64,000 nucleotides of DNA, taken from Methylocystis rosea SV97. GTDB lineage: Bacteria; Pseudomonadota; Alphaproteobacteria; Rhizobiales; Beijerinckiaceae. Below are positions 6,500-63,837 of this stretch, piece by piece (positions within the stretch are counted from its first letter, which is position 1; the number at the start of each line of letters is the position of its first letter). The translations under genes were made by a program, and so were the position numbers. Below the pieces are notes generated by a model. The model had not been told where the DNA came from and ran no database searches. It was given only the letters and a program-made list of their open reading frames with translations. The DNA lies in the NCBI RefSeq assembly GCF_000372845.1, contig NZ_KB889963.1:1360146-1424145 (forward strand), read 5' to 3'.

Positions 6500-6906
6500 A
6501 ACGCCGCGAAGGCGAGCGCGCCCGCCGATTCGAGCGAAATATCGAAGGTCACTTCGGCCGAATATTCACCGCGGTAATCGAGATTGGCGATCTGGAACAG
6601 GCCGGAGAGAAGGCCAAAATCCGGAATGACGATCTGCCATTCGCGCAGCAGCCCGTCGAAGAAGGTCTGGCGCAGGAGCGCATCCGACGACTGATCCTTG
6701 AACACGCCTGTCCCGGAAATGCTGGCGCGCTTCAAGCCGGCGCCGTCGAGCAGTTCGCGCCAGCGGCCGCTGGATTCGGCGTCGGTGACGTCGACCGTGT
6801 CGGCGTTCAGCGCGAGGCGTCGCGTGCGCAAGCCAGCGACCGTGACGAAGCTCGTGCCGTCATGAATTTTCAAAAGCAGATCCTTGCCTTTCTGGGCGGC
6901 CATCAT
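6496..6906 (-). CDS. Major tail tube protein, TP901-1 type (GTA gp9-like)
   Basis: The protein has 136 residues. The KGKDLLLKIHDG start, the DTVDVTDAESSGRWRELL segment and the LRQTFFDGLLREWQI stretch are typical of the TP901-1 major tail protein family. It builds the tail tube of the GTA particle. The start overlaps the upstream gene stop by 4 bases. Confidence 0.92.
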   Translation of the reverse strand: MMAAQKGKDLLLKIHDGTSFVTVAGLRTRRLALNADTVDVTDAESSGRWRELLDGAGLKRASISGTGVFKDQSSDALLRQTFFDGLLREWQIVIPDFGLLSGLFQIANLDYRGEYSAEVTFDISLESAGALAFAAL

Positions 6907-7322
6907 TGAGCTCCGTTAAAGAATTCGGTCGTGGCGCGAAAGCGCAGATTGACCCGCGCAAAGCGGCCACTTTGCTCGCGACGCGTTTCCATGGTGAGGA
7001 AGCGCAAGTCGATCAGCCGATGCCCCTCAAGACTGAGCGGCGCCTCATCGAGGAGATCGGCGATGCGCTGGGCCAGTTGGAGCGCCTCGCTTAGCCCCCG
7101 CATCGTCGATGTGACGCCGATCGTAAAGAGCTGCTCTGCGCCCGGCGAGAGATCGGCGGACCAGTCGCGCAGCTGCGCTTCGCCAAAAAGCGCATAGGGC
7201 GGTTCGGTTCCGTGCGGCGTCTCGTCGTAAAGCTTTTGGCCGAACGCGGCGGCGAAACCCGCATCCGCGAGCAGATAGGCGCGGATCGCTTTGCGAAGCG
7301 CGATGACCGGTGAAGCGCTCAT
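6903..7322 (-). CDS. DUF3168 tail terminator (GTA gp8-like)
   Basis: The protein has 139 residues of the DUF3168 family. It contains LYDETPHGTEPPYALFGEAQLRDWS, in which the PPYALFGE core is the family signature, and ends in a beta strand region (VNLRFRATTE). By family it closes the tail tube at the head-tail junction. Confidence 0.9.
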   Translation of the reverse strand: MSASPVIALRKAIRAYLLADAGFAAAFGQKLYDETPHGTEPPYALFGEAQLRDWSADLSPGAEQLFTIGVTSTMRGLSEALQLAQRIADLLDEAPLSLEGHRLIDLRFLTMETRREQSGRFARVNLRFRATTEFFNGAQ

Positions 7323-7332
7323 GGCGAGTCCT

Positions 7333-7659
7333 TTAAGTGATCTCTTCGCACGCGCAGATCAGAAGTCGCCGACGCTCGTCGGGATCGAGAGCCGATTGGA
7401 TGCGCAGCCTGCGGCCACGATGAACGAAGCGCAGGTCCTTTGTGACGTCGTTACGCCAACGAATCATCACGACATAGTTCGTGGCCTGTTCGGCGCGCTG
7501 CTCGACGAAGTCCTCGCGCGCGCCTGAAGGCGCGATGCGCGCCCAGAGGCTCGCGACCGGGGCGAAGCTGCGCGTAAATCCGCCGGCGCCATCCGGCGCG
7601 TCGATGGGCGCCTCGAGCGTCACGCGATGGCGAAGCGCGCCGATAGGGAGGCCGCTCAC
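7333..7659 (-). CDS. Phage head closure / head-tail adaptor (GTA gp7-like)
   Basis: The protein has 108 residues. The pattern IGALRHRVTLEAP, then LWARIAPSGAREDFVEQR, then YVVMIRWR is the head-tail joining protein family (gp16-type, TIGR01563-like). It overlaps the connector gene stop by 4 bases. It seals the portal-connector channel. Confidence 0.9.
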   Translation of the reverse strand: MSGLPIGALRHRVTLEAPIDAPDGAGGFTRSFAPVASLWARIAPSGAREDFVEQRAEQATNYVVMIRWRNDVTKDLRFVHRGRRLRIQSALDPDERRRLLICACEEIT

Positions 7660-8231
7660 AGCAGCCGCCCCCGCCGAAACGGCGCTGCAAGTTGCGCGAC
7701 CGTTTTGGGCAAAGCGTCGTCGCCGCTATCGCCGCGGTGTTCGCGCCAATGCGCGACGAGCGTCAAAATCGCTTGACGCAGCGGTTGCGGCGCGTCGCTC
7801 GCGAGCGAGCCATAGCCGACGTCAAAGTCGATCTCGATTCCATCGCTCGCGCGTTCAGGCGCCGGCGGCGCCGATGTAAAGTTGATGCGGCCGCCCTCGG
7901 TCGAGTTTGGCGCGCGATAGGCCGCGGCATTGAGCGTCTGCGGCGCGTTGCTTGCGTCGAACACGCGGATCGCCGTCACCGACTGAAATGGCGCGAAGGG
8001 AATGCGGAGCGTCGCAATCGAGGCGACCGAAGTCGGCCAGCAGTCGAAAACCAGGCGCCAGCTTTGCGTGACGAAGAAGCGCCGCGTATAGGCCTCGAGC
8101 GTCATGCGCGCGGCGACGATCAGCGCCTGGATCAATTCATCCTCTTCGACGCCGTCTTCACGCAGCCATGATTTTGCGTCGGCGAGCGAGACGGGCTCGA
8201 TCGCCGGCGCGCCGATGAGCATCGGTCGCAT
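7656..8231 (-). CDS. Head-tail connector protein (GTA gp6-like)
   Basis: The protein has 191 residues from MRPMLIGAPAIEPVSLADAK, which has a good upstream AGGAAG. The open frame continues up to 8288 but the N-terminus there looks non-coding. EPVSLADAKSWLR and EDELIQALIVAARMTLEAYTRRFF are the classic gp6-type connector signature. It sits directly after the capsid gene as expected. Confidence 0.9.
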   Translation of the reverse strand: MRPMLIGAPAIEPVSLADAKSWLREDGVEEDELIQALIVAARMTLEAYTRRFFVTQSWRLVFDCWPTSVASIATLRIPFAPFQSVTAIRVFDASNAPQTLNAAAYRAPNSTEGGRINFTSAPPAPERASDGIEIDFDVGYGSLASDAPQPLRQAILTLVAHWREHRGDSGDDALPKTVAQLAAPFRRGRLL

Positions 8232-8301
8232 CGCGCTTCCTAGGTTGTGGTGAGCAGATGGCCGCGACCTTTCTCGTCGCGGCCTCAACGGGGCCGGCTG
8301 A

Positions 8302-9528
8302 TTACGACGCAGCGAATTTCAACAGCTTGATCGCCTCGAAATTCTGCACGCCGCCGCCGACCCGCTTCGTCGTGTAGAAAAGGACGTAGGGCTTGGCCGA
8401 GTAGGGATCGCGCAGCACGCGAATGCCGACGCGGTCCACCACCACATAGCCGCGCTCGAAATCACCGAAGGCGATGGAGAGAGAATTCGCGGCTGGGTCC
8501 GGCATGTCCTCGGCTTCGATGACGGGGAAGTTCATCAGCGAGGCGCCGGCGTCGGCGGTTGCAGGCGGCGCCCAGATGTAGTCGCCCGTCGTCGTCTTGA
8601 ACTGTCGCACGAGCGACTGTGCGCGCCGACCCATCACGAATTTGCCGTTCTGGCGGAAGCCGGCGCGCAGCGCATAGACGAGATTGACCAGCGCGTCGGA
8701 AGGATCGCTCGCCGCGAAAGCGCCGGCGGCGCCCGTCGCCACATAGCCGATATTGCCCCAGGTCCAGCTCGCATCGGCGACGCTTGTATAGGAGACAAAG
8801 CCCTTCGGCTTATTGACGCCGTCGCCGCTGACGAAGGCCGCGCCTTCTTGTTCGGCGAAGGCGGTTTGCACCTCCTCGGCGATCCATTGCTCGATATCGA
8901 CGACGGCGTCGTCGAGCAGCGCCTGTGTCGCCGCCGGCATCGCGTAAAGCTCCATCGCCGGGAAGGTCATGTCGGCGAGCTGCTGATTGTTGGTCTGCGG
9001 GCGCGGATCGGCTTCCGCGACCCAGCCGGCGGCGGGTCCCGTCGTGGAGAAGGCGCGGCGTAGCGAGGCGCCGGAGATTTCGCGCACGCTGGAAATGGCG
9101 CGGATCGGCGAGAACTTCGCGAGTCTGCGCAGAACTTCCCGCTCGGTCGGCAGCGGCACGAGATAGCCGCCGTCAGGGCCCGACCCGCGCGACAGCGCCT
9201 TGGCTTCGAGCGCCTTGAGGCCGCTGGCTTCGCCCGAACGCATGTAGTGATTGAAGGCGCTCTTGTGCTCGCGCCCGCTGTGGTCGTCGACGAGCTTGCC
9301 GCCAATACGCGGCCGCGACATTTCGAGCGCCAAGCGATCGAGCCGGCTCTTGGTGTCGTCAAGCGCCTGGTCGATGCGCGCGAGCTTCTCTTCGGTCACG
9401 ACGTCGGCGCCGAAGCGGTTCTCAAGCTGCGTCAGACGCTCGTCGTTCGTCTCCTTGAAGGCGCTGAAAGCGCGATTGAGATCGGCGAGAATGTCGTCGC
9501 CGGCGGATTTGGTTTCAACTGCTGACAT
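8302..9528 (-). CDS. Major capsid protein, HK97 fold (GTA gp5-like)
   Basis: The protein has 408 residues. The first about 110 residues are a helical, charged delta/scaffold domain that the gp4 protease would remove. The mature capsid begins about residue 115-130 (the GGYLVPLPTEREV region) and follows the HK97 fold: N-arm, P-domain, and a C-terminal segment with RVGGGVQNFEAIKLLKFA. The start ATG has a GAGG eight bases upstream. An open frame continues to 9735 but overlaps the protease gene and is not used. Confidence 0.93.
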   Translation of the reverse strand: MSAVETKSAGDDILADLNRAFSAFKETNDERLTQLENRFGADVVTEEKLARIDQALDDTKSRLDRLALEMSRPRIGGKLVDDHSGREHKSAFNHYMRSGEASGLKALEAKALSRGSGPDGGYLVPLPTEREVLRRLAKFSPIRAISSVREISGASLRRAFSTTGPAAGWVAEADPRPQTNNQQLADMTFPAMELYAMPAATQALLDDAVVDIEQWIAEEVQTAFAEQEGAAFVSGDGVNKPKGFVSYTSVADASWTWGNIGYVATGAAGAFAASDPSDALVNLVYALRAGFRQNGKFVMGRRAQSLVRQFKTTTGDYIWAPPATADAGASLMNFPVIEAEDMPDPAANSLSIAFGDFERGYVVVDRVGIRVLRDPYSAKPYVLFYTTKRVGGGVQNFEAIKLLKFAAS

Positions 9529-51272: not shown

Positions 51273-52301
51273 ATGACCAAGGATCTGATCGTTCCCGTCG
51301 CAGAGGGCCTCTACTGCCCTCCTGGAAATTTCCACATCGACCCGTGGCGCCCGGCGGCTCTGGCGGTGATTACGCACGGCCATTCTGATCACGCGCGATG
51401 GGGCAGCGGCGCCTATCTCTGTCACGAGGATTGCGCGCCGATCCTGCGCAGACGACTCGGCGACGTTCGCATCGAGACGCTGCGTTATGGCGAGAGCCGA
51501 GACATCGGCGAGGTGCGGCTCTCGCTGCATCCCGCCGGCCATGTCATCGGCTCGGCGCAGGTGCGCATCGAGCATCGCGGCGAGGTCTGGGTCGCCTCCG
51601 GCGACTACAAGCTCGAAACGGACGGCGTCAGTGCACCTTTTGAGCCCGTCCCGTGCGACGTCTTCATCACCGAATCGACCTTCGGTCTGCCGATCTATCG
51701 CTGGCGCCCGCAAGCCGAAGTGATGGCCGACATCAATTCATGGTGGGCGGAAAATGCGCGCGCGGGACGGGCCAGCGTCATGCAGGCCTACGGGCTTGGC
51801 AAAGCGCAGCGCCTGCTCAAACATCTCGACGCGAATATCGGCCCGATCGTCTGCCATGGCGCGATCGAACCGCTCAATCAGATTCATCGCGATCTCGGCA
51901 TAGCGCTGCCACCCACCTTCAACGTCGGCGCGCTCGACAAGCCGGGGCTTTCGCGCTGCTTTGCGCTGGCGCCGCCCCACGCCGTGCAAAGCGGGTGGAT
52001 TAGACGCTTTGGCGATCATTCGGACGCCTTCGCCAGCGGATGGATGCGGCTGCGCGGCAATCGGCGACGCCGCGGCGTCGATCAAGGCTTCGCGCTTTCG
52101 GATCACGCCGACTGGCCGGGTCTGTTGCAGGCGATCGCCGCAACCGGCGCGGAGCGTATCCTTGTCACGCATGGAAGCGGGGAGGCGCTTTCGCGCTATC
52201 TGCGCGAAAAAGGATATGACGCGCGGCCGATGGCGACCGAATATGGCGACGAAGAGGGCGAGGCGGAGCCGAACGTCGACGCCGACACAGACGGCGCATG
52301 A
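51273..52301 (+). CDS. Ligase-associated DNA damage response exonuclease (metallo-beta-lactamase fold)
   Basis: The protein has 342 residues. HGHSDHARW is the metallo-beta-lactamase metal motif, HPAGHVIGSAQV and SGDYKLETDG follow, and beta-CASP signatures include SDHADWPGLL. Conserved first member of the four-gene repair set with a DNA ligase, a helicase and PdeM, found in many bacteria. It overlaps the ligase by 4 bases. Confidence 0.9.
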   Translation: MTKDLIVPVAEGLYCPPGNFHIDPWRPAALAVITHGHSDHARWGSGAYLCHEDCAPILRRRLGDVRIETLRYGESRDIGEVRLSLHPAGHVIGSAQVRIEHRGEVWVASGDYKLETDGVSAPFEPVPCDVFITESTFGLPIYRWRPQAEVMADINSWWAENARAGRASVMQAYGLGKAQRLLKHLDANIGPIVCHGAIEPLNQIHRDLGIALPPTFNVGALDKPGLSRCFALAPPHAVQSGWIRRFGDHSDAFASGWMRLRGNRRRRGVDQGFALSDHADWPGLLQAIAATGAERILVTHGSGEALSRYLREKGYDARPMATEYGDEEGEAEPNVDADTDGA

Positions 52302-54028
52302 AGACCTTCGCCACGCTCTACCGGCGCATCGACGCCGCCACGTCGACGCAGCATAAGAGACAGGCGCTGATCGACTATCTGCGCCTTGCGGTCGGCGATC
52401 CGGAGCAATACGCCAGCGCCGCCTGGACAGTCTATTTTCTCGCCGGCGGCAAGCCGCGCCAGATGATCTCGACCAAGCTCCTGCGCCAGCTCGCCTTGGA
52501 GGCGACGGATCTGCCCGAGTGGCTCCTCGACGAGTGCTATCACAGCGTCGGCGATCTCGCCGAGACTTTGGCGCTTTTGCTGCCGCCGCCGACCCGGGTG
52601 GAAGACGCGCCGCTCGATCTTTGGATGAACGAACGGCTACTGCCCTTGCGCGAGCGCGATGACGCTGAGCGGCTCGCGGCGCTACGCGGCTGGCTCGACG
52701 CTATGCCATCCGACGACCGCTTGCCGTTTTTCAAGCTCGTCACCGGCGAAATGCGCATCGGCGTCTCGAAGCTGCAAATGACTCAGGCGATCGCCCAGGC
52801 GACCGAGCTTGACGCCAAGCTCGTCGCGCAGCGGATGATGGGCTACACGCAGGCGAATCGCGCGCCTCAGGCGCAGGATTTCGTCGCGCTCGTTGCGCCA
52901 GCCGAAGCGGGCGAAGACGGCCGCCCTCTGCGTGGTCAGCCTTATCCGTTCTTTCTCGCGCACCCGCTTCAGGCGCCGCTTTCGGCCTTTCCAGAACTGC
53001 TCGGCCCCGTCGATGACTGGCTCGTTGAATGGAAATTCGATGGCATACGCGCGCAGTTCATTCATCGCGCCGGAGAGTGGTGGCTGTGGTCTCGCGGCGA
53101 AGAGCTTGTCAGCGACAGCTTTCCGGAGCTCGCCGCGCTCGTCGATTTTCTCCCCGACGATATTGTTCTCGATGGCGAGCTCATCGTCGTCGCGCCCCGT
53201 TCGGACGCGCGTTCCGCGGTGGACGATCTTAGCGATCTGCGTCCCTTTTCAGAATTGCAGCAGCGTCTCGGACGCAAGGTTCTCACGCCAAAAATGTTGC
53301 GCGACAGGCCAGTGGCGCTGATCGCTTATGACCTTCTCGAGAAAGACGGCCACGATCTTCGCGAAAAGCCGCAGAGGGAGCGTCGCGTGCTCCTCGAAGA
53401 GGTCGTGTCGCGCGCGCATTCCTGCGCGATGCAGGTCGGCGCCGATTTGCCCCTGCGGCTCAGCCCGGCGCTGACGCAACCCGATTGGGAGTCCTTTGCA
53501 AGACAGCGCGAGGAGGCCCGGGCGCGCGGCGCCGAAGGCATGATGCTGAAGGCGATGAACGCGCCTTATGGCGTCGGCCGCCAGAAGAGCGGCGCCAATC
53601 TGTGGTGGAAATGGAAGCTCGATCCGATGAGCGTCGACGCGGTGCTGATCTACGCCGCGCGGGGTCATGGGCGCCGTTCGGGAGTTTACAGCGACTACAC
53701 ATTCGGGGTGTGGAGCGGCCCGCCGGAGCAGACGGACCGCACGCTGCTGCCCTTCGCCAAGGCCTATTCCGGACTTTCCGACGAGGAGATGCGCAAGGTC
53801 GACGCGACGATCAGAAGGACGACGATCGAGAATTTCGGGCCAGTGCGCAGCGTGCGTCCGACGATGGTTTTCGAACTCGGCTTTGAGGGAATTGGCGCCA
53901 GCAACCGTCACAAAAGCGGCATCGCCGTGCGATTTCCGCGCATGTTGCGCTGGCGACAGGACAAGCCCGTGGAGGACGCCGACACGATCGAGGCGCTACG
54001 CGCGCTGTTGCCTGGCGGCGGCGCATGA
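52298..54028 (+). CDS. ATP-dependent DNA ligase of the ligase-associated set
   Basis: The protein has 576 residues. N-terminal DNA-binding domain about 1-220, nucleotidyl Lys246 in [11 protein letters not shown], motifs [15 protein letters not shown] and the OB-fold [12 protein letters not shown]-like end. Reported family members act in repair of replication or crosslink damage. It is translationally coupled with its neighbours on both sides. Confidence 0.92.
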
Positions 54029-56505
54029 GCGGACGACGCGCGAAACATTCCGCCGTGAAGAGCTTACTCGCGGAGCGCGGCTGGAAGGCGTTTCGCTTCC
54101 AGCAAGAAGTGTGGCGCGAAATGGCGGAGGGACGCAGCGGCCTGCTGCACGCGACGACTGGCGCCGGCAAAACTCTGGCCGTTGCGCTCGGCGCCTGGAA
54201 GGCCCTCGCGGATGACGCGGAAGAGCCGCCACGACTCTGTGTTCTCTGGATCACGCCGATGCGCGCCCTCGCCGCGGATACCGCCAAGGCGCTCAACGAG
54301 GCGTTCGACGGTCTCTCCGCGCATGGCCAGCGATGGACGGTCGGCGTTCGCAGCGGTGATACGCCCCCAGCCGAGCGCGCCCGGCAGGCGCGTCGTCCGC
54401 CCAGCGTGTTGATCACGACGCCGGAGAGCCTGTCGCTCATGCTCTCGCGCGCCGACGCTCGCGACTATCTCGGCGCGATCAGATGCGTTGTCGTCGACGA
54501 GTGGCACGAACTCCTCGGCAATAAGCGCGGCGTGCAGACGCAGCTTGCGCTCGCGCGGTTGAAGCGCTGGCGACCGGATCTGTTGATTTGGGGCATGTCG
54601 GCGACGCTTGGCGATCTTGAAGAAGCAAAGCGCGTCCTGCTCGGTCCAACCGATGCGCCGCGCGGTGCGATCGTCGCGGGCGGCTTGCGCAAAGATATCG
54701 TCATCGACACGCTGTTGCCGGAAGATTTCGCGCGCTTTCCCTGGGCCGGGCATCTTGGAATTAGAATGGCGCCGCAGGTGGTCGCGGAGATCGAGCAATC
54801 TCCGACGTCGCTCATTTTCACCAACACGCGCTCCCAGGCGGAAATCTGGTATCACAATCTCTTGCGCGCCCGGCCGGACTGGGCGGGACTCATCGCAGTT
54901 CATCACGGCTCGCTGGCGCGCGAGTCGCGCGACTGGGTTGAGGATGGACTTAAGCTCGGCAAGCTTAAAGCCGTCGTCTGCACGTCCAGCCTCGATCTTG
55001 GCGTGGATTTTCTTCCCGTCGAACGCATCCTGCAGGTCGGCTCGCCCAAGGGCGTCGCGCGCCTTCTGCAGCGTGCCGGCCGCAGCGGCCATGCTCCCGG
55101 GCGCACGTCGCGCATCACGCTTGTGCCGAGCCATGCACTCGAGCTTGTCGAATCGTCGGCCGTGCAGCAGGCGGTGCGGGAGGGCCGCATCGAAAGCCGC
55201 CGCACGCCGATCGCGCCGCTCGACGTGCTGGTGCAACATCTTGTCACCATCGGACTGGGCGGCGGCTTCAGGCCTGACGAATTGCTCGAGGAAATTCGTT
55301 CGACGGCGTCCTATGAATATCTTCCCGAAGAGAATTGGCGCTGGTGTCTCGACTTCGTGAGCGGCGGCGGACCGAGCCTTTCCGCCTATCCCGAATATCG
55401 CCGCTGCGGTCCTGACGCGGGCGGCGTGTGGCGCGTCGTGAGCAAGCAGATCGCTCTGCGCCATCGACTCAACATCGGGACGATCACCGCGGACGCGAGC
55501 GTTCTCGTTCAATACGGACCCGCGCCGCCGGGTCAAAAGCTCGGCGTCGTGGAGGAAAGCTTTATCGCGCGGCTCAAGCCAGGCGACAGCTTTTGGTTTG
55601 CGGGTCGGATTCTCGAATTCGTGCGCTTGCGCGACCTTGTCGCCTATGTGCGGCCGGCGAAGGCGCGAAGCGGCGCGGTTCCGCGCTGGGACGGCGGGCG
55701 AATGCCGCTTTCGACGACTCTGGCCGACGCCATGGTCGAGCAATTGCAGCGCGCGGCCGAGGGGCGTTATGACACGCCGGAGCTGCGGGCGGCTGAGAAA
55801 ATGCTGAGATTGCAAGCGCGCTGGTCGCACCTGCCGACGCCGACGACGCTGCTTGCCGAAACATTGAAAAGCCGCGACGGCTGGCATTTGTTCCTCTATC
55901 CCTTTGCGGGCCGGAATGCGCATATCGGCATGGCGAGCCTCATCGCCTGGCGGGCGGCGCAGGAGACTGCGAGCACGTTCTCGATCGCCGTGAATGATTA
56001 CGGCTTCGAGCTTTTGAGCGCCGACCCGCGCGACTGGGACGCCATGCTGCCGGAACTGATTGCGCCGCGCGCCATTGATGACCTGACGCATGAAACGCTC
56101 GCGAGCCTGAACGCTGCGGAGCTGGCGCGCCGACGTTTTCGTGACATTGCGCAGATCGCCGGTCTCGTCGTGACGACCTATCCCGGACAACATAAGAGCA
56201 TGCGCCAGTTGCAGGCCTCTTCGAGCCTGTTCTACGACGTCTTTCGCAAATTCGATCCGGAAAACGGGTTGTTGCGCCAGGCTGAGCGCGAGGTCCTGGA
56301 AGACGCGCTCGACATCGCGCGTCTTGCCGAAAGCTTCGAGCGGCTGCAAAATAGAGAGATTGTCCATGTCGCGCTGCAGCGCTGCTCGCCGCTCGCCTTT
56401 CCGCTGATGGTCGAGAGAATGCGCGAGCGCCTCAGCAATGAGACGCTCGCGGCGCGCATCGAGCGCATGATTTCGCAGCTGGAGCGCGCCGCGGACAAAT
56501 GTTAG
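54025..56505 (+). CDS. Ligase-associated DEXH-box helicase (Lhr-like)
   Basis: The protein has 826 residues. Walker A TTGAGKT (44-50), DEWH in [20 protein letters not shown], and helicase C motifs [38 protein letters not shown]-terminal region of about 400 residues carries Lhr-like winged-helix and DUF4942-type sequence. It probably unwinds or anneals ends for the exonuclease and ligase. Overlaps both neighbours. Confidence 0.92.
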
Positions 56506-57197
56506 AGCCTGAAAAGACGTTGCAGAGAGAAGGTGCCGGCCTCGTCTCCTCTCACGAGCATCGCGGCCTGGTTTTGCTGCCGCAGCGCGCCGTGTGGCGC
56601 GTTGAGACTCGCACGCTGTTTGTCGCCGACGCGCATCTTGGCAAGGCGGCGACATTTCGTACGCTCGGACAACCGGCGCCGAAGGGAACGACGCGCGACA
56701 ATCTCGACCGGCTCGACGCGCTCATAGATCGATTCAATCCCACCCGGCTCGTTTTCTTGGGCGATTTGTTTCACGCGCGGCAGGCGCATGCGCCGAGGGT
56801 GGCGGCCTCCTTTCTCGACTGGCGCAGGCGTCACGCCGCGTTGCGCCTCACGCTCGTGCGCGGCAATCATGATCGGCGCGCAGGCGATCCGTCGGAACAG
56901 TTGGGGATCGAGCTTGTCGACGAGCCCTACGACGCAGAAGGGATTGTCCTACGTCACCACCCGCTTGCGTCCGACGAATGCGAAGGGCAGGGGGCGACCA
57001 TTCTTGCGGGGCATCTTCACCCATGTGTCCGGCTGAGGGGGGCGGCGCGCGACAGCGTTCGTCTTCCCTGCTTTGTGCTGCAAGAGCGACAGGTCGTGCT
57101 GCCCGCCTTCGGCGCGTTCACGGGCGGCGCGCTGGTGCGTGGGCGCGATATTCGAACCTGTGCGATCGTCGATGAACGATGGCTCGTTGCCGGCTAG
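56499..57197 (+). CDS. pdeM: Ligase-associated phosphoesterase PdeM
   Basis: The protein has 232 residues, calcineurin-like: [26 protein letters not shown] and HHP, GHLHP. Starts 7 bases inside the helicase gene. It is the fourth gene of the repair set and ends convergent with the ATP-grasp gene, sharing 4 bases at the stops. Confidence 0.92.
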
Positions 57198-58552
57198 CTG
57201 CGCGTTGCATGAAGCGTGGTGACAGGTGGCGAGGGCGGATGACCGTGCAATTTGATTTCGTCTCCCAGCAGGCCAAGCGCTTTCACTTTGGCGTAATGCG
57301 CCGCGATCAATTGTTCTCCGATGTCGCGCCGGTAACGCATGTTGGGGATATGCACGCGCTCAATCAGCCGATAAGTGTCGCGGCGCGCGCTCTGGATCGT
57401 TCGCCCGCAGCCCGTCGCCACCATCGTCCAGCCATAGGCGCCCTCGGTGACCAGCTGGCCGTTGTCGAGAGCCACTTCGCAATAGTGCAGATGTTCCTGG
57501 TCCCTGCGGGACAATGCGCCGTCAAAGAGGATCGGCATGCCGATTGGCTCTTCCGCCTGTCGTCGCGAATAGGGGAAAGGCGGGACCGTTAGGACAACGC
57601 CGACCGAGAACCCCTCATCGACGTCCAGATGATCCCTGTCGCGGCGGACCATCGCCTCAAACAATTCCGCCCAGGACGTTCGCTGTAACGGCGACAGAAT
57701 GGCGAAGCCCGGATAGCCGAACCTGCAGGTGAATTCGAGCGGCCAAATGCCCTGCTCATTGACGATGGTGTTGAGGTTCACATAGCCGCAATGGCCGTGT
57801 CGCCTGAGCAAAGGCTCGATCCTCGCCAAAGTTTTCTCAAAGAAGAGGGTCGAGTTCTCGAATGTAGCGACGGTGCCCATTTCTCCTGTCAGCTCGCCAA
57901 GGTCGCCCGGGAAGAAGCGCTTGTGCTCCCAGTCGAGACAGGCAGGCCGCAAAAACTTCTCGCCGTCGAAATAAGCGCCGACGCCCATCTCGACGCCATC
58001 TATGAAATCCATCAGGACGAAGCCGGCTTCGTCCGCCGGAGTGTCCGGCAGATTTTGCAGCAGCGCGGAAATGTCGCGTCCGTCGGCGAGACCGCCGGCG
58101 AAGTTGCGATGCGCCAAATCGGGCGAGTTGAATTTTAGGACATAGCGTCCGGGGCGCTCGCGAAGGAAGCTTAAGCCCTCCTGCCTTTTCGAAAAATGGC
58201 GGGTATCCGCGGTTGAGAGGCCGAGTTCAGCAAGAAGGCTCTGCGCATAGGCGCGGTCGATTTCGAGCCGGTCGCCGAAGGCGCTCCCGCCGATGACATT
58301 GAATCCATCCTTTCGCAACTCGTCCTGCAAGCCGCCGCACGAGACGTTTTCGAATAGGATGATTCCCTCGCTGCCGGCGCTTTTCACCCAATGCAGTTGC
58401 GAACGCCAGTCATCCGTCTTGGGGATCATCCCGTTCAGAATGTTCTGACAAAGCGGCGCGTCGATGAAGACTTTGACCTCATGTCCTTGCGCGGAAAGTC
58501 GAAGATAGAGCGCGGCGAGGTCGCAGTAGTTCCCAATCCCCAGAACCCGCAT
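57194..58552 (-). CDS. GARS-like ATP-grasp enzyme of unknown substrate
   Basis: The protein has 452 residues from MRVLGIGNYCDLAALYLRLSAQGHEVKVFI. It follows the ATP-grasp layout of PurD (phosphoribosylglycinamide synthetase): N-domain, YVLKFNSPDLAH, FVLMDFIDGVEMGVGAYFDG, EFTCRFGYPGFAILSP. The genuine PurD signatures and purine gene context are absent, and upstream are a heme-oxygenase-like gene and a methyltransferase. It likely forms an amide or peptide bond on an unknown compound. AGGAG precedes the start. Confidence 0.75.
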   Translation of the reverse strand: MRVLGIGNYCDLAALYLRLSAQGHEVKVFIDAPLCQNILNGMIPKTDDWRSQLHWVKSAGSEGIILFENVSCGGLQDELRKDGFNVIGGSAFGDRLEIDRAYAQSLLAELGLSTADTRHFSKRQEGLSFLRERPGRYVLKFNSPDLAHRNFAGGLADGRDISALLQNLPDTPADEAGFVLMDFIDGVEMGVGAYFDGEKFLRPACLDWEHKRFFPGDLGELTGEMGTVATFENSTLFFEKTLARIEPLLRRHGHCGYVNLNTIVNEQGIWPLEFTCRFGYPGFAILSPLQRTSWAELFEAMVRRDRDHLDVDEGFSVGVVLTVPPFPYSRRQAEEPIGMPILFDGALSRRDQEHLHYCEVALDNGQLVTEGAYGWTMVATGCGRTIQSARRDTYRLIERVHIPNMRYRRDIGEQLIAAHYAKVKALGLLGDEIKLHGHPPSPPVTTLHATRS

Positions 58553-58560
58553 GGACGCTC

Positions 58561-59484
58561 CTAGGCCGCTTCTCGCGGCGGCTCCATTCGCAGCCGGAAG
58601 TGACGTCGGTAGCGCTCGAAGCATCGCGCGCCGTGCCAGAGCCGAAGAACCGCGCCCTCACCGATCGCCTGCGCGCGTCGCGGATCTTCCTCAACGAGAG
58701 GGCGCAGAACTTCGCGATTCCACGCCTCGGAGTGTTTGACGTCGAGAATCGCGTGCAGCGAAAAATACTGGCGCTGTTTGCCGGGAACTTTGAGCCGCCG
58801 CAGCCCGCATTCGACATGGATCGCGCGTCCCGGCGCCGTCATCTCGATGGCGCCAAGCGCGCCGATCGAATGGAAGGCGTAGCGACGATTGCTGGCGAGC
58901 GCCACCATCGTATTGCCGAGCGCGAGCGACTCGGGGCAGACGCGCTCCGGCCGCGCGTCGATGCCGAAAAAGGCGGCGAGCCGCGTCAGCATCGGTCCGT
59001 GCATGCCCTGCGCATTGCCCCGGCCCATTTCGTCCCAGTAATTTCGCGCCATTTCGAGCTTGGGCGTCTGCGGCATCTTGATCTGGGTGAGCGCGACGAG
59101 ATCGTCGAACCCTGCTTCGCCGGACACTTCCTGCTCAAGAAACCATTTCATGTCCTCGAAGCTCGCCCGTCGCTCGAGCCAGGGGAACAGCGGATCTTTC
59201 TGGCCTGGCCCCTTCTCGGCAAGGCGCTCATACCAGGCCAGGAAGGCGTCGGCGTCGCTTGGAATATCGGCGACAAAGGGCGCGATCGCCGCGCGAGCGC
59301 TCTCCACATAGGCGATTTCAGCCTCCGCGAGCGCGGCGCGCTCTTGCACGTCTTCACGCCAGTCGCCGGACGGAGTCAGAGGCTCTAGCCGAACGCCATT
59401 GCGTCGGCAAAGCTCTCTCTGGAAGCGCTCAAAGGCCGCGCCGTCTAGCGCCGGAGCCAGGTCGATCCAATCGGGATCACGCAT
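58561..59484 (-). CDS. Iron-containing redox enzyme, heme-oxygenase-like fold (HDO family)
   Basis: The protein has 307 residues, mainly helical, with family features EDMKWFLEQEVSGEAGFDD, EMARNYWDEMGRGN and HVECGLRR plus DVKHSEAWN, which suit the four to six Glu/Asp/His ligands of the diiron HDO (PqqC/TenA-related) superfamily. Members cleave C-C or C-N bonds or oxidise small molecules. It sits between the methyltransferase and the ATP-grasp gene, 3 and 8 bases apart. Confidence 0.75.
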   Translation of the reverse strand: MRDPDWIDLAPALDGAAFERFQRELCRRNGVRLEPLTPSGDWREDVQERAALAEAEIAYVESARAAIAPFVADIPSDADAFLAWYERLAEKGPGQKDPLFPWLERRASFEDMKWFLEQEVSGEAGFDDLVALTQIKMPQTPKLEMARNYWDEMGRGNAQGMHGPMLTRLAAFFGIDARPERVCPESLALGNTMVALASNRRYAFHSIGALGAIEMTAPGRAIHVECGLRRLKVPGKQRQYFSLHAILDVKHSEAWNREVLRPLVEEDPRRAQAIGEGAVLRLWHGARCFERYRRHFRLRMEPPREAA

Positions 59485-59487
59485 ATG

Positions 59488-60495
59488 TCAGCCTTCTTTC
59501 TTGATGTTGAGGAAGACTGCGGCGATGCGGTCAACATTGTCGTAGGCAGAGCGCTTCAGCTCTTCGCCGAAGACGTCGGGGTCGACCTCGTCGTAATCGA
59601 AGGTTACCGGCGAGGCGTCCAGGATTGGCGTCACGGCTGCAAAAAACTGATCGACGCCGCCAACGATCGGCGAGCCGGTATAGAGCAGCAGTCTTCCGCT
59701 TTCCGTCAGACGCGGGATGCCCTCCCGTACAATGTCGACGGATAGGGCTATGCCGAACTCGCCGCCCCCATGGCGATAGAGACGTTGGTAGTCATCGACG
59801 AGATAGGGCGGATTGGCGATGATATAGTCGAACAGGCCGCCAGCGTTCTGGAAGAGATCGCTGTGAATCGCCTGTGTGCGTTTTAATCCGTTCAACGCAG
59901 CGTTGACTCGCGCATATCGCACCGCTTGGGGATTGATGTCGGCGAGCAGCAGCCCGACGCCGGGTCTCATCAGGCTCGCCGCGAAAATCCCGCCCGCGCC
60001 GCTGCCGCACCCGATGTCGACGAAACGGCCGGGCGCCGAGGCTGAGAGAGGCTGCGAATTGAGGACAGATTCGACGCAGCGCGCGAAACGGTACGTGTCA
60101 GGTCCGAAAAAAACTGAATCGGCGGCGTCCGTGGGAAAGGCCGAGTGCGCAAAGAGCTGGTTCTTAAGAGTCGAGAAGCGGACCTTGCTGCGCAAGAGTC
60201 CGTTGCAATGCGCCAGCGCCTTAGCCTCCGCGAGTGCGCGCAGCACCGGCGCCGGCAGATCGCTCGCAGAAAATGGCAGACTCCATCCGAATGCGCGCGC
60301 CAAATTCGATCCATCCACCGCCGGACGTTGCACGACGCGGTTATGCGTCAGCGGCGTCGTCGTCGTGAAGCGGTAGTTCTGGTCCCGAAGGAACGCGCCC
60401 AGCCGTAGCAGCGCCTCGTCCGCGACGCTCAGACCTTGGTGAGTAGCCGTCGACGGCCCGGTAGCCGTCTCGTCAGAGCAGAGATCCAGTTGCAT
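59488..60495 (-). CDS. SAM-dependent methyltransferase (PrmC/HemK-like, NPPY)
   Basis: The protein has 335 residues. SAM loop VDIGCGSGAGGIFAA and the catalytic-type ANPPYLVDD motif of N5-glutamine and related N-methyltransferases. The N-terminal about 150 residues differ from PrmC. It is the first gene of the three-gene cassette, so it probably modifies the cassette product rather than a ribosomal protein or release factor, which is inference. Confidence 0.75.
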   Translation of the reverse strand: MQLDLCSDETATGPSTATHQGLSVADEALLRLGAFLRDQNYRFTTTTPLTHNRVVQRPAVDGSNLARAFGWSLPFSASDLPAPVLRALAEAKALAHCNGLLRSKVRFSTLKNQLFAHSAFPTDAADSVFFGPDTYRFARCVESVLNSQPLSASAPGRFVDIGCGSGAGGIFAASLMRPGVGLLLADINPQAVRYARVNAALNGLKRTQAIHSDLFQNAGGLFDYIIANPPYLVDDYQRLYRHGGGEFGIALSVDIVREGIPRLTESGRLLLYTGSPIVGGVDQFFAAVTPILDASPVTFDYDEVDPDVFGEELKRSAYDNVDRIAAVFLNIKKEG

Positions 60496-60613
60496 CCATC
60501 GCCCCAAGCGCCAAGAGAGGTCTCAACTCACGGCGATGACGATAGTTCCGATACGTTTGTGCTTGCGCCAAAGTTGGATCGTAAAGCCTGCGGCAAGCGG
60601 CGAGAGCGGATAG

Positions 60614-61399
60614 CTAACTCTTGGCGTCGATCGCGCGCAGTTCTCCCGATGGAAGCGTATCGGCTTCGTCTTTGAGATCGACGCCGGTCAGCTGGCGTCG
60701 ACGCGCTTCGTTGCAAAGATAAAGCAGCTTGTGCGCGGCGTCGGCGTAGGAAAGACCTTGCGGGCGGATATTCGAGAGGCAGTTGCGCTCGGCGTCGGTG
60801 CGGCCGACGCGCGGCGCAAATGTGAGATAGACGCCCATGCTGTCCGGCGAGGAGAGTCCGGGTCGTTCGCCGATGAAAACCGCCACAAGCCTTGCCCCAA
60901 GCGTTTCGCCGATATCGTCGCCGAGCGCCACGCGCCCCTGTTCGGCGAGAACGATCGGCGCGATTTTCCACGATGTTTGGCCGAGAGATTGCAGCGCTCT
61001 TTCGAGCACCGGAAGTGCGTGCCGGGCGATCGCGCGGGCGGAAAGTCCTTCGGCGATGACGAACACAAGATCGTAGTCGCCTGCCAAGGGCTTGAGATGC
61101 TCGCGGGAATCGTCGTCCAGTTTTCGACCAAGGTCGGGACGCAGCAGAAAGCTTCGCCGATCGCGGGCGGCGCTCTTCACGCGGACGGCCGTCAGCCCGC
61201 GCGAGGTCAGCGCGTTGAAGAGCCGGTCGGCGTCGAGCCGCTCTTCCACCGCATCCCGCGCTTCGGCATGCGCCAGCTGGAAATCGAGAGTAGCGCGCGT
61301 CGTCAGCGCCGGCCCGGCGCGTGGCAGGAAAATTCTTGCCGGCGTCGCCGAACGCAGCATCGAAATCTTGTCGAGAGGCGTCGGGCGATCATCGGCCAT
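60614..61399 (-). CDS. eutC: Ethanolamine ammonia-lyase light chain
   Basis: The protein has 261 residues. It contains AHAEARDAVEERLDA and the cobalamin-contacting C-terminal LIYLCNEARRRQLTGVDLKDE, both usual in EutC. With EutB it forms the adenosylcobalamin enzyme that splits ethanolamine into acetaldehyde and ammonia. The gene follows eutB by 2 bases. No microcompartment genes are present. Confidence 0.92.
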   Translation of the reverse strand: MADDRPTPLDKISMLRSATPARIFLPRAGPALTTRATLDFQLAHAEARDAVEERLDADRLFNALTSRGLTAVRVKSAARDRRSFLLRPDLGRKLDDDSREHLKPLAGDYDLVFVIAEGLSARAIARHALPVLERALQSLGQTSWKIAPIVLAEQGRVALGDDIGETLGARLVAVFIGERPGLSSPDSMGVYLTFAPRVGRTDAERNCLSNIRPQGLSYADAAHKLLYLCNEARRRQLTGVDLKDEADTLPSGELRAIDAKS

Positions 61400-61401
61400 C
61401 C

Positions 61402-62781
61402 TCAGGCTCTTTCGAGAAGCGGCGCAAAGGATGCAGGCAGCGCCAGCGGCTGCAATTCGCCACGCGCGTCCGTCAAACCGACGTCAGCGAGCCATTGCGC
61501 AAATTCGGGAGCGGGCGCCAGGTTCAGCATGCGCCGAACGGCAACCACGTCATGATAGGAGGTGCTCTGGTAATTCAGCATGATGTCGTCCGCGCCGGGG
61601 ACGCCCATGACGTAATTAACGCCGGCGACGGCGAGCAGCGTCAGCAGATCATCCATATCATTCTGGTCGGCTTCGGCGTGGTTCGTGTAACACACGTCGC
61701 AGCCCATCGGCAGTCCAAGCAGCTTGCCGCAGAAGTGGTCTTCGAGCGCCGCCCGCGTAATCTGCTTGCCGTCGAACAGATATTCAGGGCCGATGAACCC
61801 GACGACGGTGTTGACCAGCAGAGGATCGAACATCCGCGCCACGCCATAGGCGCGGGCTTCCAGCGTCTGTTGATCGCAATTCCAGTGGGCACTGGCCGAA
61901 AGCGCGCTGCCCTGGCCAGTCTCAAAATACATGACATTGTCGCCGATCGTTCCGCGTCTGAGCGCAAGCGCCGCCTCGCGCGACTCGCGCAACACCGCGA
62001 GGTCGATCCCAAAGCTGGTATTGGCGGCCTGCGTGCCGCCGATCGATTGAAACACCAAATCGACGGGCGCACGTCGCTCCATCAGCTGCAGCGTCGTCGT
62101 GACATGGGCGAGCACGCAGGATTGCGTCGGGATGCTGAGCGTCTCGCGCAGCTCATCGAGAAGGCTCAGGAGTTCGTAGCACTGCTCCGGACTGTCGGAC
62201 GCGGGATTGACGCCGATGACTGCGTCGCCATTGCCGAGCAGAAGCCCGTCGATGGCGCTTGCGAGGACGCCGCGCGCATCATCGGTCGGATGGTTGGGCT
62301 GAATGCGCGATGACAGTCGTCCGCGCAGGCCGAGCGTATTGCGAAATTTCGTGACGACGCGCCGCTTGGCGGCGATCAGGATCAGGTCCTGGTTGCGGCA
62401 GATCTTCGAGACCGCCGCGGCCATTTCCGGCGTCAGGCCGAAGGTCAAGGCGGCGAGCTTGTCCTCATCGACGGCGTCGGAGAGAAGCCAGTCGCGAAAT
62501 TCTCCGACGGTCAGCGAGGCGATCGGCGCAAAGGCGTTTCGGTCGTGGCCGTCGAGGATCAGTCGCGTGACCTCGTCCTCTTCGTAGGGGACAAGCGCTT
62601 CGTTCAAGAACACGCTCAAGGGCAGATCGGCGAGGGTCATCTGCGCAGCGACGCGCTCCGCGGCGCTCGTCGCCGCAATGCCGGCGAGGCAATCCCCGGA
62701 ACGCAAGGGGGTCGCCTTCGCCATCAGCGTTTTAAGGTCTGGAAACCTGTAGCTCGTTCCACGTATCGTCGTTGCATACAT
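61402..62781 (-). CDS. eutB: Ethanolamine ammonia-lyase heavy chain
   Basis: The protein has 459 residues, the normal EutB length. The TIM-barrel features include FIGPEYLFDGKQITRAALEDHFCGKLLGLPMGCDVCYTNHAEADQND and ADDIMLNYQSTSYHD, both EutB signatures. It binds substrate and the upper face of B12. Promoter must lie in 62782-62946, shared divergently with the kinase-like gene. Confidence 0.94.
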   Translation of the reverse strand: MYATTIRGTSYRFPDLKTLMAKATPLRSGDCLAGIAATSAAERVAAQMTLADLPLSVFLNEALVPYEEDEVTRLILDGHDRNAFAPIASLTVGEFRDWLLSDAVDEDKLAALTFGLTPEMAAAVSKICRNQDLILIAAKRRVVTKFRNTLGLRGRLSSRIQPNHPTDDARGVLASAIDGLLLGNGDAVIGVNPASDSPEQCYELLSLLDELRETLSIPTQSCVLAHVTTTLQLMERRAPVDLVFQSIGGTQAANTSFGIDLAVLRESREAALALRRGTIGDNVMYFETGQGSALSASAHWNCDQQTLEARAYGVARMFDPLLVNTVVGFIGPEYLFDGKQITRAALEDHFCGKLLGLPMGCDVCYTNHAEADQNDMDDLLTLLAVAGVNYVMGVPGADDIMLNYQSTSYHDVVAVRRMLNLAPAPEFAQWLADVGLTDARGELQPLALPASFAPLLERA

Positions 62782-62946
62782 GGGGCCAGACCTCGAAAGA
62801 CCTTCTCACAGGCTATGGCGCCCCAGCGGACATGTCACTGTCCGCGCGTAAGGTTTTCCCCAAGGCCCTTCGTAGCCCATGGCCTTTGCGCGCCAGCCGC
62901 ATATATTAGCTCAGTCAGAGTTTGTTACATTGCCCCGCCGGAGCCG

Positions 62947-63837
62947 ATGTCAGCCCATACCGCAGATCCAGAAGCCCTGATACGCGCGCTTCCGCTCTGG
63001 CGCGGCCAGATCGAGATCGCGCCGTTGCTCGGCGGCATCACCAACAAAAATTATATCGTCAAGGATGGCGATCGATCCGTCGTCGTTCGCCTTGGCGGTG
63101 ACATTCCGGTTCATGGCGTCATGCGCTTTAACGAATTGGCGGCGAGCAGGGCCGCGGGCGCCGCCGGCATATCGCCGAAAGTTCTGCATGCCGCGCCGAT
63201 GGCGATGGCGCTCGAATTTATCTCGGGCCGCACCTATGAGCCGGAAGACATGCGGGCGAACCGCAGACGCTGCGTCGATCTCATCAAGCGCGTTCATCGT
63301 GAGGTTGCGCCGCATTTGCGCGGGCCGACCCTGGCGTTCAACGTCTTCCATATCATTCGCGACTACGCCCATACGCTGATCGAGGACAAAAGCCGGATGT
63401 CGGCGAATTTGCCGCGCTTGCTCGCGGCGAGCGAGAATTTGGAAAAAGCGATGGGCCCGATCGACCTCGTCTTCGGTCATAATGATCTCCTTGCCGCCAA
63501 TTTCATCGACGACGGGCGTCGGCTTTGGCTGGTCGACTGGGACTATGCCGGATGGAATACGCCGCTGTTCGATCTTGGCGGACTCTCCTCGAACAATGGT
63601 TATTACGCCGCGGACGACGACGCGATGCTCGAGGACTATTTCGAAGCGGCGCCATCCGATGCGTTGCGGCGCCACTTCAAAGCGATGCTTTGCGCCTCGC
63701 TGTTGCGCGAAGCGTTGTGGAGCCTTGTCTCAGAGAGTCGGTCGTCGATTGATTTCGATTACGTCGCTTACTCAGAACAAAATCTGACGCGCTTCGATGA
63801 CGCCTGGGCGGCGTTCCAGCAGATGGAAAGAGCATGA
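62947..63837 (+). CDS. Choline/ethanolamine kinase-like phosphotransferase (APH fold)
   Basis: The protein has 296 residues from [14 protein letters not shown]. It contains [10 protein letters not shown], the Brenner motif [12 protein letters not shown] (catalytic Asp) and [18 protein letters not shown], as in choline kinase-like APH enzymes. Substrate unknown; a role with ethanolamine or choline is suggested by the adjacent eutBC. Its frame is open upstream to 62545 antisense to eutB, but only this start is credible. It overlaps the next gene by 4 bases. Confidence 0.85.

Follow-up and report, generated by a model that had tools for sequence, protein, structure and literature searches.

What do three tightly packed genes of Methylocystis rosea SV97, encoding a methyltransferase, a predicted diiron oxygenase and an ATP-grasp protein, make between them? 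The genes are found in a 64,000-nucleotide stretch of contig NZ_KB889963.1 (positions 1,360,146 to 1,424,145), which is called the window here and whose own numbering is used throughout. They are:

59488-60495, minus strand: MT, an open reading frame of 335 aa from the ATG at 60495, a class I S-adenosylmethionine-dependent methyltransferase with the MTS fold and an NPPY motif.
58561-59484, minus strand: HDO, an open reading frame of 307 aa, a predicted member of the heme-oxygenase-like diiron oxygenase (HDO) family.
57194-58552, minus strand: ATPG, an open reading frame of 452 aa, a PurD-derived ATP-grasp protein without the GGREH loop and a proposed ligase.

An initial annotation of the window had described three tightly spaced genes of these families at 57194-60495, and the reading frames, the gaps between them (3 bp for MT/HDO, 8 bp for HDO/ATPG) and the Pfam matches agree with it. 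The three-gene cassette is real, conserved and recurrent in many lineages. With somewhat less than even confidence, we favour the reading that it modifies arginine, or a compound derived from it, in a short tailoring pathway. HDO would N-hydroxylate the guanidine group using its diiron site and O2, MT, an NPPY-type enzyme, would then N-methylate the hydroxylated product, and ATPG, which is paralogous to PurD but altered at its substrate end, may join the product to a second molecule. HDO would be the hub and MT the usual second step, with ATPG or a cyanophycin operon as alternative third partners. Gene content, linkage, co-inheritance, metal ligands, predicted folds and partner exchange are observed, and it is from these that we infer the substrate, the order of the steps and the product.

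The sequence of HDO marks it as an intact superfamily member. It matches PF14518 (Haem_oxygenas_2) with 133.6 bits against a Pfam cut-off of 28.9, and it is the only PF14518 protein in the source genome. No C-terminal cupin domain is present, PF14518 being the only Pfam domain found in the 307 residues. The predicted metal ligands E152, H162, E214, H244, D248 and H251 follow the pattern E...H...E...HxxxDxxH. The initial annotation had named these ligands as a point to check, and all six are present, invariant in 54 of 54 aligned relatives and common to HrmI and four HrmI-like plasmid proteins. They appear to correspond to E215, H225, E281, H311, D315 and H318 of SznF, as given in the accessible part of PMC11705231, a correspondence taken from the end points of a phmmer match. 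The best sequence match in the PDB is HrmI (E 1e-28, about 30% identity), and SznF is matched with an E value of 0.5. The AlphaFold2 (AF2) model of HDO has a mean predicted local distance difference test score (pLDDT) of 91.5, and Foldseek places HrmI first (E 2e-12), followed by RohS, 3bjd, FlcD, CADD and SznF. Superposition of the model on HrmI chain 9n1a gives a TM-score of 0.84 by query length, which points to the heme-oxygenase fold. HrmI, RohS and SznF are N-oxygenases, and FlcD and CADD are not, according to the PDB titles or the part of PMC13108848 that was available. The HDO clade has invariant residues of its own, including R147, W114, T216, N256, E258, E276, C288 and Y292, and therefore its substrate is probably unlike that of HrmI. 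The closest loci outside the window are from Methylocystis or Methylocystaceae records, with HDO identities of 86-93%.

The methyltransferase matches the Pfam MTS methyltransferase family and has the NPPY motif. It scores best against PrmC/HemK models, reaching 64.4 bits with NCBIfam PrmC TIGR03534 against a cut-off of 199.1, and both PrmC and RsmC were rejected as equivalogs because the scores fall under the cut-offs. A fold comparison of the AF2 model (mean pLDDT 89.8) ranks gentamicin N-methyltransferase first, AerE and PrmC after it and a carbamoyl N-methyltransferase lower in the list. The nitrogen bound by NPPY enzymes is planar. It is proposed that MT is an N-methyltransferase of an sp2 nitrogen, and a guanidine nitrogen would fit.

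ATPG matches GARS_A (38.0 bits) and GARS_C (38.3 bits), both above the Pfam cut-offs, and aligns to PurD over most of its length with the HKR and CRFG motifs kept. It is not PurD itself, since it scores 112.3 bits against a cut-off of 288 with NCBIfam purD TIGR00877, and an ordinary PurD with the GGREH loop (GARS_A 256 bits) is encoded elsewhere in the genome. The loop is absent in 16 of 16 aligned ATPG relatives, and the EYN of PurD has become an invariant EFT. In PurD the GGREH loop has a phosphate-binding role. We read ATPG as a PurD-derived ligase with a putatively different amine partner; the family named in the initial annotation, a GARS-like ATP-grasp ligase, stands and is refined here to a PurD paralogue without the GGREH loop. 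A lone ATPG relative with 35% identity is found on a haloarchaeal plasmid (L195:7980-9296), with no HDO or MT among its annotated neighbours.

How regularly do the three genes occur together? The search covered 289 genomes sampled from the class, among them the source genome, with thresholds of E<=1e-90 for window-type HDO, E<=1e-20 for MT and E<=1e-50 for ATPG. HDO matches (E<=0.001) were found in 10 of these genomes; five are window-type and the other five have E values of 3e-32 or weaker. MT occurs in exactly the five genomes with window-type HDO; for independent genomes this coincidence would have a chance of 6e-11, but these genomes are not independent. ATPG is present in four of the five, and in the fifth, G147, there is an ATPG fragment at a contig end. 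A contig scan confirmed 425 HDO relatives. The best 80 of these, five loci from plasmids and a further genome locus make up a set of 86 HDO loci. MT is found in 41 and ATPG in 17 of the 86, and in 37 of 84 loci MT and HDO are directly adjacent, with MT on the upstream side in 25 and on the downstream side in 12. The gene orders vary and include MT-HDO-ATPG, ATPG-MT-HDO, divergent and split forms; shuffled orders with proximity kept are what selection for linkage would leave. The recurrence of the three genes elsewhere, for which the initial annotation had suggested a search, is thus seen both in the class sample and in a survey of 89 loci. When HDO genomes were searched for ATPG, it was found in four of 50, one of these being the local copy of L078, which leaves three elsewhere. 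On the HDO tree (84 rows) the labels change five times for cyanophycin, seven for ATPG and four for arginine hydrolase.

The restriction of MT to genomes with window-type HDO, which held in the class sample, was overturned by a phylum sample of 398 genomes, where window-type HDO is found in six, MT in 18 and both in three. HDO is found in genomes without MT and MT in genomes without window-type HDO, so each can act without the other.

Two further genes are seen at some of these loci. A small SET-domain gene stands beside the cassette at L040, L043, L047, L048, L075 and L196 (five of the 17 ATPG loci and a Sphingomonas daechungensis plasmid). A gene for a dicarboxylate/amino-acid symporter adjoins HDO or MT at L012, L055, L070, L074, L090, L146, L192 and L193.

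What stands beside MT when window-type HDO is missing? This is the case in 15 of the 398 phylum genomes, for which neighbourhoods of up to 16 kb (14 genomes) or a 3.9-kb locus (one) were analyzed. In 13 of the 15 (12 of the 14, and L170), the gene directly beside MT encodes an HDO of a second subfamily, distant from the first and about 440-480 aa long; most of the 13 genomes come from one family (f182), and the independent cases are fewer than 13. Three of these proteins were checked and match PF14518 with 93-95 bits, and blastp against the window HDO gave no significant match (best E 0.03). Among the predicted ligands of this subfamily an E, two H and the D align, the E214 position is taken in the alignment by a Q that directly follows an E, and the final His falls at a different spacing (HxxxDx5H). 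These pairs (L173-L185 except L182, and L170), which lie outside the window's class, are often near a gene for a YbdK-type carboxylate-amine ligase or a zinc alcohol dehydrogenase.

A different partner is found at L186, from the window's own family, where MT lies between an EgtD-like methyltransferase gene and a YqcI/YcgG gene, with gaps of 39 bp to the former and 24 bp to the latter; the three genes share one strand and span 6517-9393. The YqcI/YcgG protein scores 236 bits against the GntA model (cut-off 145), and the EgtD-like methyltransferase scores 307 bits (cut-off 290.9). YqcI/YcgG enzymes are heme-dependent guanidine N-H hydroxylases, as described in the part of PMC12866846 that could be consulted. 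Counting window-type HDO, the second HDO beside MT and YqcI/YcgG, an oxygenase partner is found for 17 of the 18 MT genomes in the phylum sample. The simplest reading is that the two HDO subfamilies and YqcI/YcgG feed the same kind of substrate to MT. Because HDO without MT is commoner than MT without an oxygenase, oxygenation would come before methylation, the reverse of the streptozotocin order.

Other neighbours are linked to arginine. Genes of the dimethylarginine dimethylaminohydrolase (DDAH)/arginine-deiminase type are found near HDO or MT in four genomes (L014, L099, L034 and L141). At L014, a Legionella sainthelensi plasmid, an arginine-hydrolase-like domain is fused in front of MT, and at L099 such a gene lies beside HDO; both are above the Pfam cut-offs and closest to arginine dihydrolases or dimethylargininases. 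At L034 the gene directly follows HDO and falls below the NCBIfam cut-offs. Cyanophycin is an Asp-Arg polymer, and 12 of the 86 HDO loci have a cyanophycin synthetase gene; all 12 also carry cyanophycinase, and six carry isoaspartyl peptidase. The synthetase gene recurs at L188, an independent genome. At L012 the genes cphA-isoaspartyl peptidase-cyanophycinase-MT-HDO form a single-strand run in which cyanophycinase and MT overlap by 4 bp. Of 79 HDO genomes, 16 have a cyanophycin synthetase (E<=1e-150), and in 11 of the 16 it lies within the HDO locus, where position alone would predict about 0.1 (binomial 1.5e-21, ignoring relatedness). None of the 19 ATPG genomes has it, whereas 16 of 60 others do (Fisher p 0.009, with lineage uncontrolled and 14 of the 60 lacking a genome-wide ATPG search), which is suggestive only of mutual exclusion between ATPG and cyanophycin synthetase. 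Short, incomplete stretches matching isoaspartyl peptidase and cyanophycinase lie just upstream of MT at L137 (7052-7557) and may be the remains of a cyanophycin operon. A fuller scheme can be drawn, in which a conserved, stress-linked metabolite of the N-hydroxy-N-methyl-arginine type is made with arginine from cyanophycin in some lineages, three oxygenases that are unrelated or only distantly related (the two HDO subfamilies and YqcI/YcgG) supply N-hydroxyguanidine to one MT family, and arginine hydrolases or ligases of PurD-derived or cyanophycin type serve as alternative finishers. We regard this scheme as rather unlikely.

Several observations weigh against the arginine pathway. No arginine gene was recognised by gene-family searches in ATPG-type loci, the window's own type. 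Two of the four arginine-hydrolase-type genes (L034 and L141) are weak matches to named families, the one at L141 lies 1.8 kb from MT and is below the NCBIfam cut-offs, and on the HDO tree these genes are scattered (four changes in four rows), no more clustered than shuffled labels. The cyanophycin linkage could reflect a shared stress island. The replacement of HDO by YqcI/YcgG is known from a single genome, and L182, which has MT, shows neither the second HDO nor YqcI/YcgG. HrmI, the closest solved enzyme, acts on lysine and not arginine. HDO is without the C-terminal cupin of SznF, so SznF-like N-nitrosation is not supported and was rejected. Among the 44 HDO genomes without an adjacent MT, 28 have no MT (E<=1e-20) and 16 have it elsewhere. 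Since HDO stands without MT or ATPG in many genomes, a dedicated product cluster is no more likely than an accessory step of metabolism or a small metabolite. The natural-product or metallophore pathway of the initial annotation found no specific support in this distribution or in the window itself, where no nonribosomal peptide synthetase or export gene was seen beside the cassette. Its suggestion that the precursor is a common metabolite survives in the narrower form that a common amino acid is plausible.

Could the substrate be another amino acid, or the chemistry of another kind? If the substrate were lysine or ornithine, HDO would oxidise the side-chain amine as HrmI does, MT would methylate it and ATPG would couple the product. 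Among solved enzymes, the lysine N-oxygenase HrmI is the nearest in both sequence and fold, and the SET-domain family, which is known chiefly for lysine methylation, is represented in five of the 17 ATPG loci. However, the HDO clade invariants (R147, W114, N256, E258 and E276) differ from those of HrmI-like enzymes, the HrmI-type neighbours (a 2-oxoglutarate (2OG) dioxygenase and dapF) are absent and the partner genes indicate guanidine chemistry, and we consider a lysine or ornithine substrate unlikely. Alternatively, HDO may cleave, desaturate or rearrange a carbon skeleton, like BesC, PolF or MboA, and MT and ATPG would then tailor its product. An identical ligand set serves very different chemistries in other HDOs according to the available portion of PMC13108848, and MboA, an acetylenase, is likewise encoded with ATP-grasp ligases, as the accessible text of PMC13185094 describes; the nearest sequences and folds are nevertheless N-oxygenases, and in one genome the partner is exchanged for a member of the YqcI/YcgG guanidine N-hydroxylase family. 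Carbon-skeleton chemistry also seems unlikely. It is very improbable that MT belongs with PrmC/RsmC-like enzymes and methylates protein or RNA, with HDO and ATPG as mere neighbours. The best MT scores are indeed with PrmC/HemK models, but all such scores are far under the cut-offs (64 against 199 bits for PrmC), MT is found only in HDO genomes in the class sample and it pairs with three kinds of oxygenase.

The neighbours themselves may be misleading. The motif GGAAC-N15-18-CGTT is the EcfG general-stress promoter form described in PMC6599016 and PMC7083833, whose consulted portions do not name HDO or cyanophycin genes. With related loci counted singly, this motif precedes HDO in 16 of 86 loci and MT in four of 41; among the remaining genes of these loci it precedes only 10 of 441 (Fisher p 1e-7 for the comparison with HDO), and it occurs in 1.2% of random windows. 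This enrichment makes stress islands a rival reason for some of the neighbour genes: the cyanophycin and stress-gene neighbours would then reflect shared EcfG control or genome islands and be uninformative on the substrate. LigD/Ku genes near HDO on the Legionella plasmid are also in keeping with this. On the other hand, neither the one-strand cphA-to-HDO run at L012, with its short overlap, nor the fusion of MT to an arginine-hydrolase-like domain at L014 is a stress-island effect, and we think it rather unlikely that the neighbours are uninformative. On balance the arginine or arginine-derivative pathway remains our preferred, tentative reading.

Upstream of the cassette in the window are the following features:

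60496-60613: the gap between eutC and MT, 118 bp without a sigma-70-like promoter or an EcfG-type motif.
60614-61399, minus strand: eutC, 118 bp upstream of MT and probably a neighbour only.
61402-62781, minus strand, the same as the cassette: eutB, probably a neighbour only.

The EcfG-type motif is missing upstream of both MT and eutB in the window, and EcfG control of the window cassette was rejected for this reason; no sigma-70-like promoter was found within 57000-63000. The initial annotation had pointed to co-occurrence with eutBC as a check. EutB/EutC matches (E<=1e-10) adjoin the cassette only in L023-L026, which are Methylocystis-type, among 89 loci, and in the window itself, and eutBC was accordingly rejected as part of the pathway. 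Divergent from eutB is a choline kinase-like gene (62944-63837), whose best NCBIfam match is GntI with 144 bits against a cut-off of 357. On the other side of the cassette, 52298-57197 holds ligase-associated DNA repair genes for a cisplatin-response ATP-dependent ligase, a DEXH helicase and PdeM, all above the NCBIfam cut-offs, and the convergent pdeM and ATPG genes overlap by 4 bp.

Why would such a pathway matter? Clusters combining an HDO with an ATP-grasp protein are recognised, and arginine guanidine N-oxidation with methylation is known from a few specialised antibiotics and metallophores. If the reading is true, this chemistry would be common in ordinary alphaproteobacteria and, by way of the second HDO subfamily, would extend to other classes of the phylum. 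Two as yet unassigned HDO subfamilies, a methyltransferase family and a family of PurD-like ligases would gain functions, and a new small molecule could be linked to general stress control. Thanks to the partner exchange, the substrate can be tested directly with three small proteins. Literature searches found no paper on the MT-HDO-ATPG cassette, although their coverage of subscription papers was poor and the cluster-type figure of PMC13185094 lay outside it.

How does the cassette compare with known systems? The closest likeness in logic is to SznE and SznF of streptozotocin biosynthesis, where SznE is an arginine guanidine methyltransferase. Both systems pair a methyltransferase with an HDO, the six ligands are the same and guanidine nitrogen chemistry is proposed for both. 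However, the window HDO lacks the C-terminal cupin of SznF and matches it weakly in sequence, and methylation comes first in streptozotocin, according to the part of PMC11705231 consulted, whereas the distribution here suggests that oxygenation comes first. With the lysine N-oxygenases HrmI and BelK the window HDO shares the ligands together with N148, W150, D151, N191, R200, Y240, W255 and R281, but identity is only about 30%, other residues are clade-specific, and the 2OG dioxygenase and dapF genes seen at the HrmI-like loci examined are absent here. The mangotoxin cluster mboABCDEF also encodes an HDO with an ATP-grasp protein, and the accessible sections of PMC13185094 count 1447 HDOs near an ATP-grasp gene in at least 25 cluster types; in contrast to mangotoxin-type clusters, the cassette has a PurD-derived ATP-grasp protein, with an NPPY methyltransferase as the constant partner. 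ATPG shares GARS_A, GARS_C, HKR and CRFG with PurD (glycinamide ribonucleotide synthetase) and differs in the loss of GGREH, the change of EYN to EFT and a score under the family cut-off. The YqcI/YcgG proteins (GntA, AglA) have an unrelated heme protein fold and are absent from the window, yet it is a member of this family that takes the place of HDO beside MT at L186.

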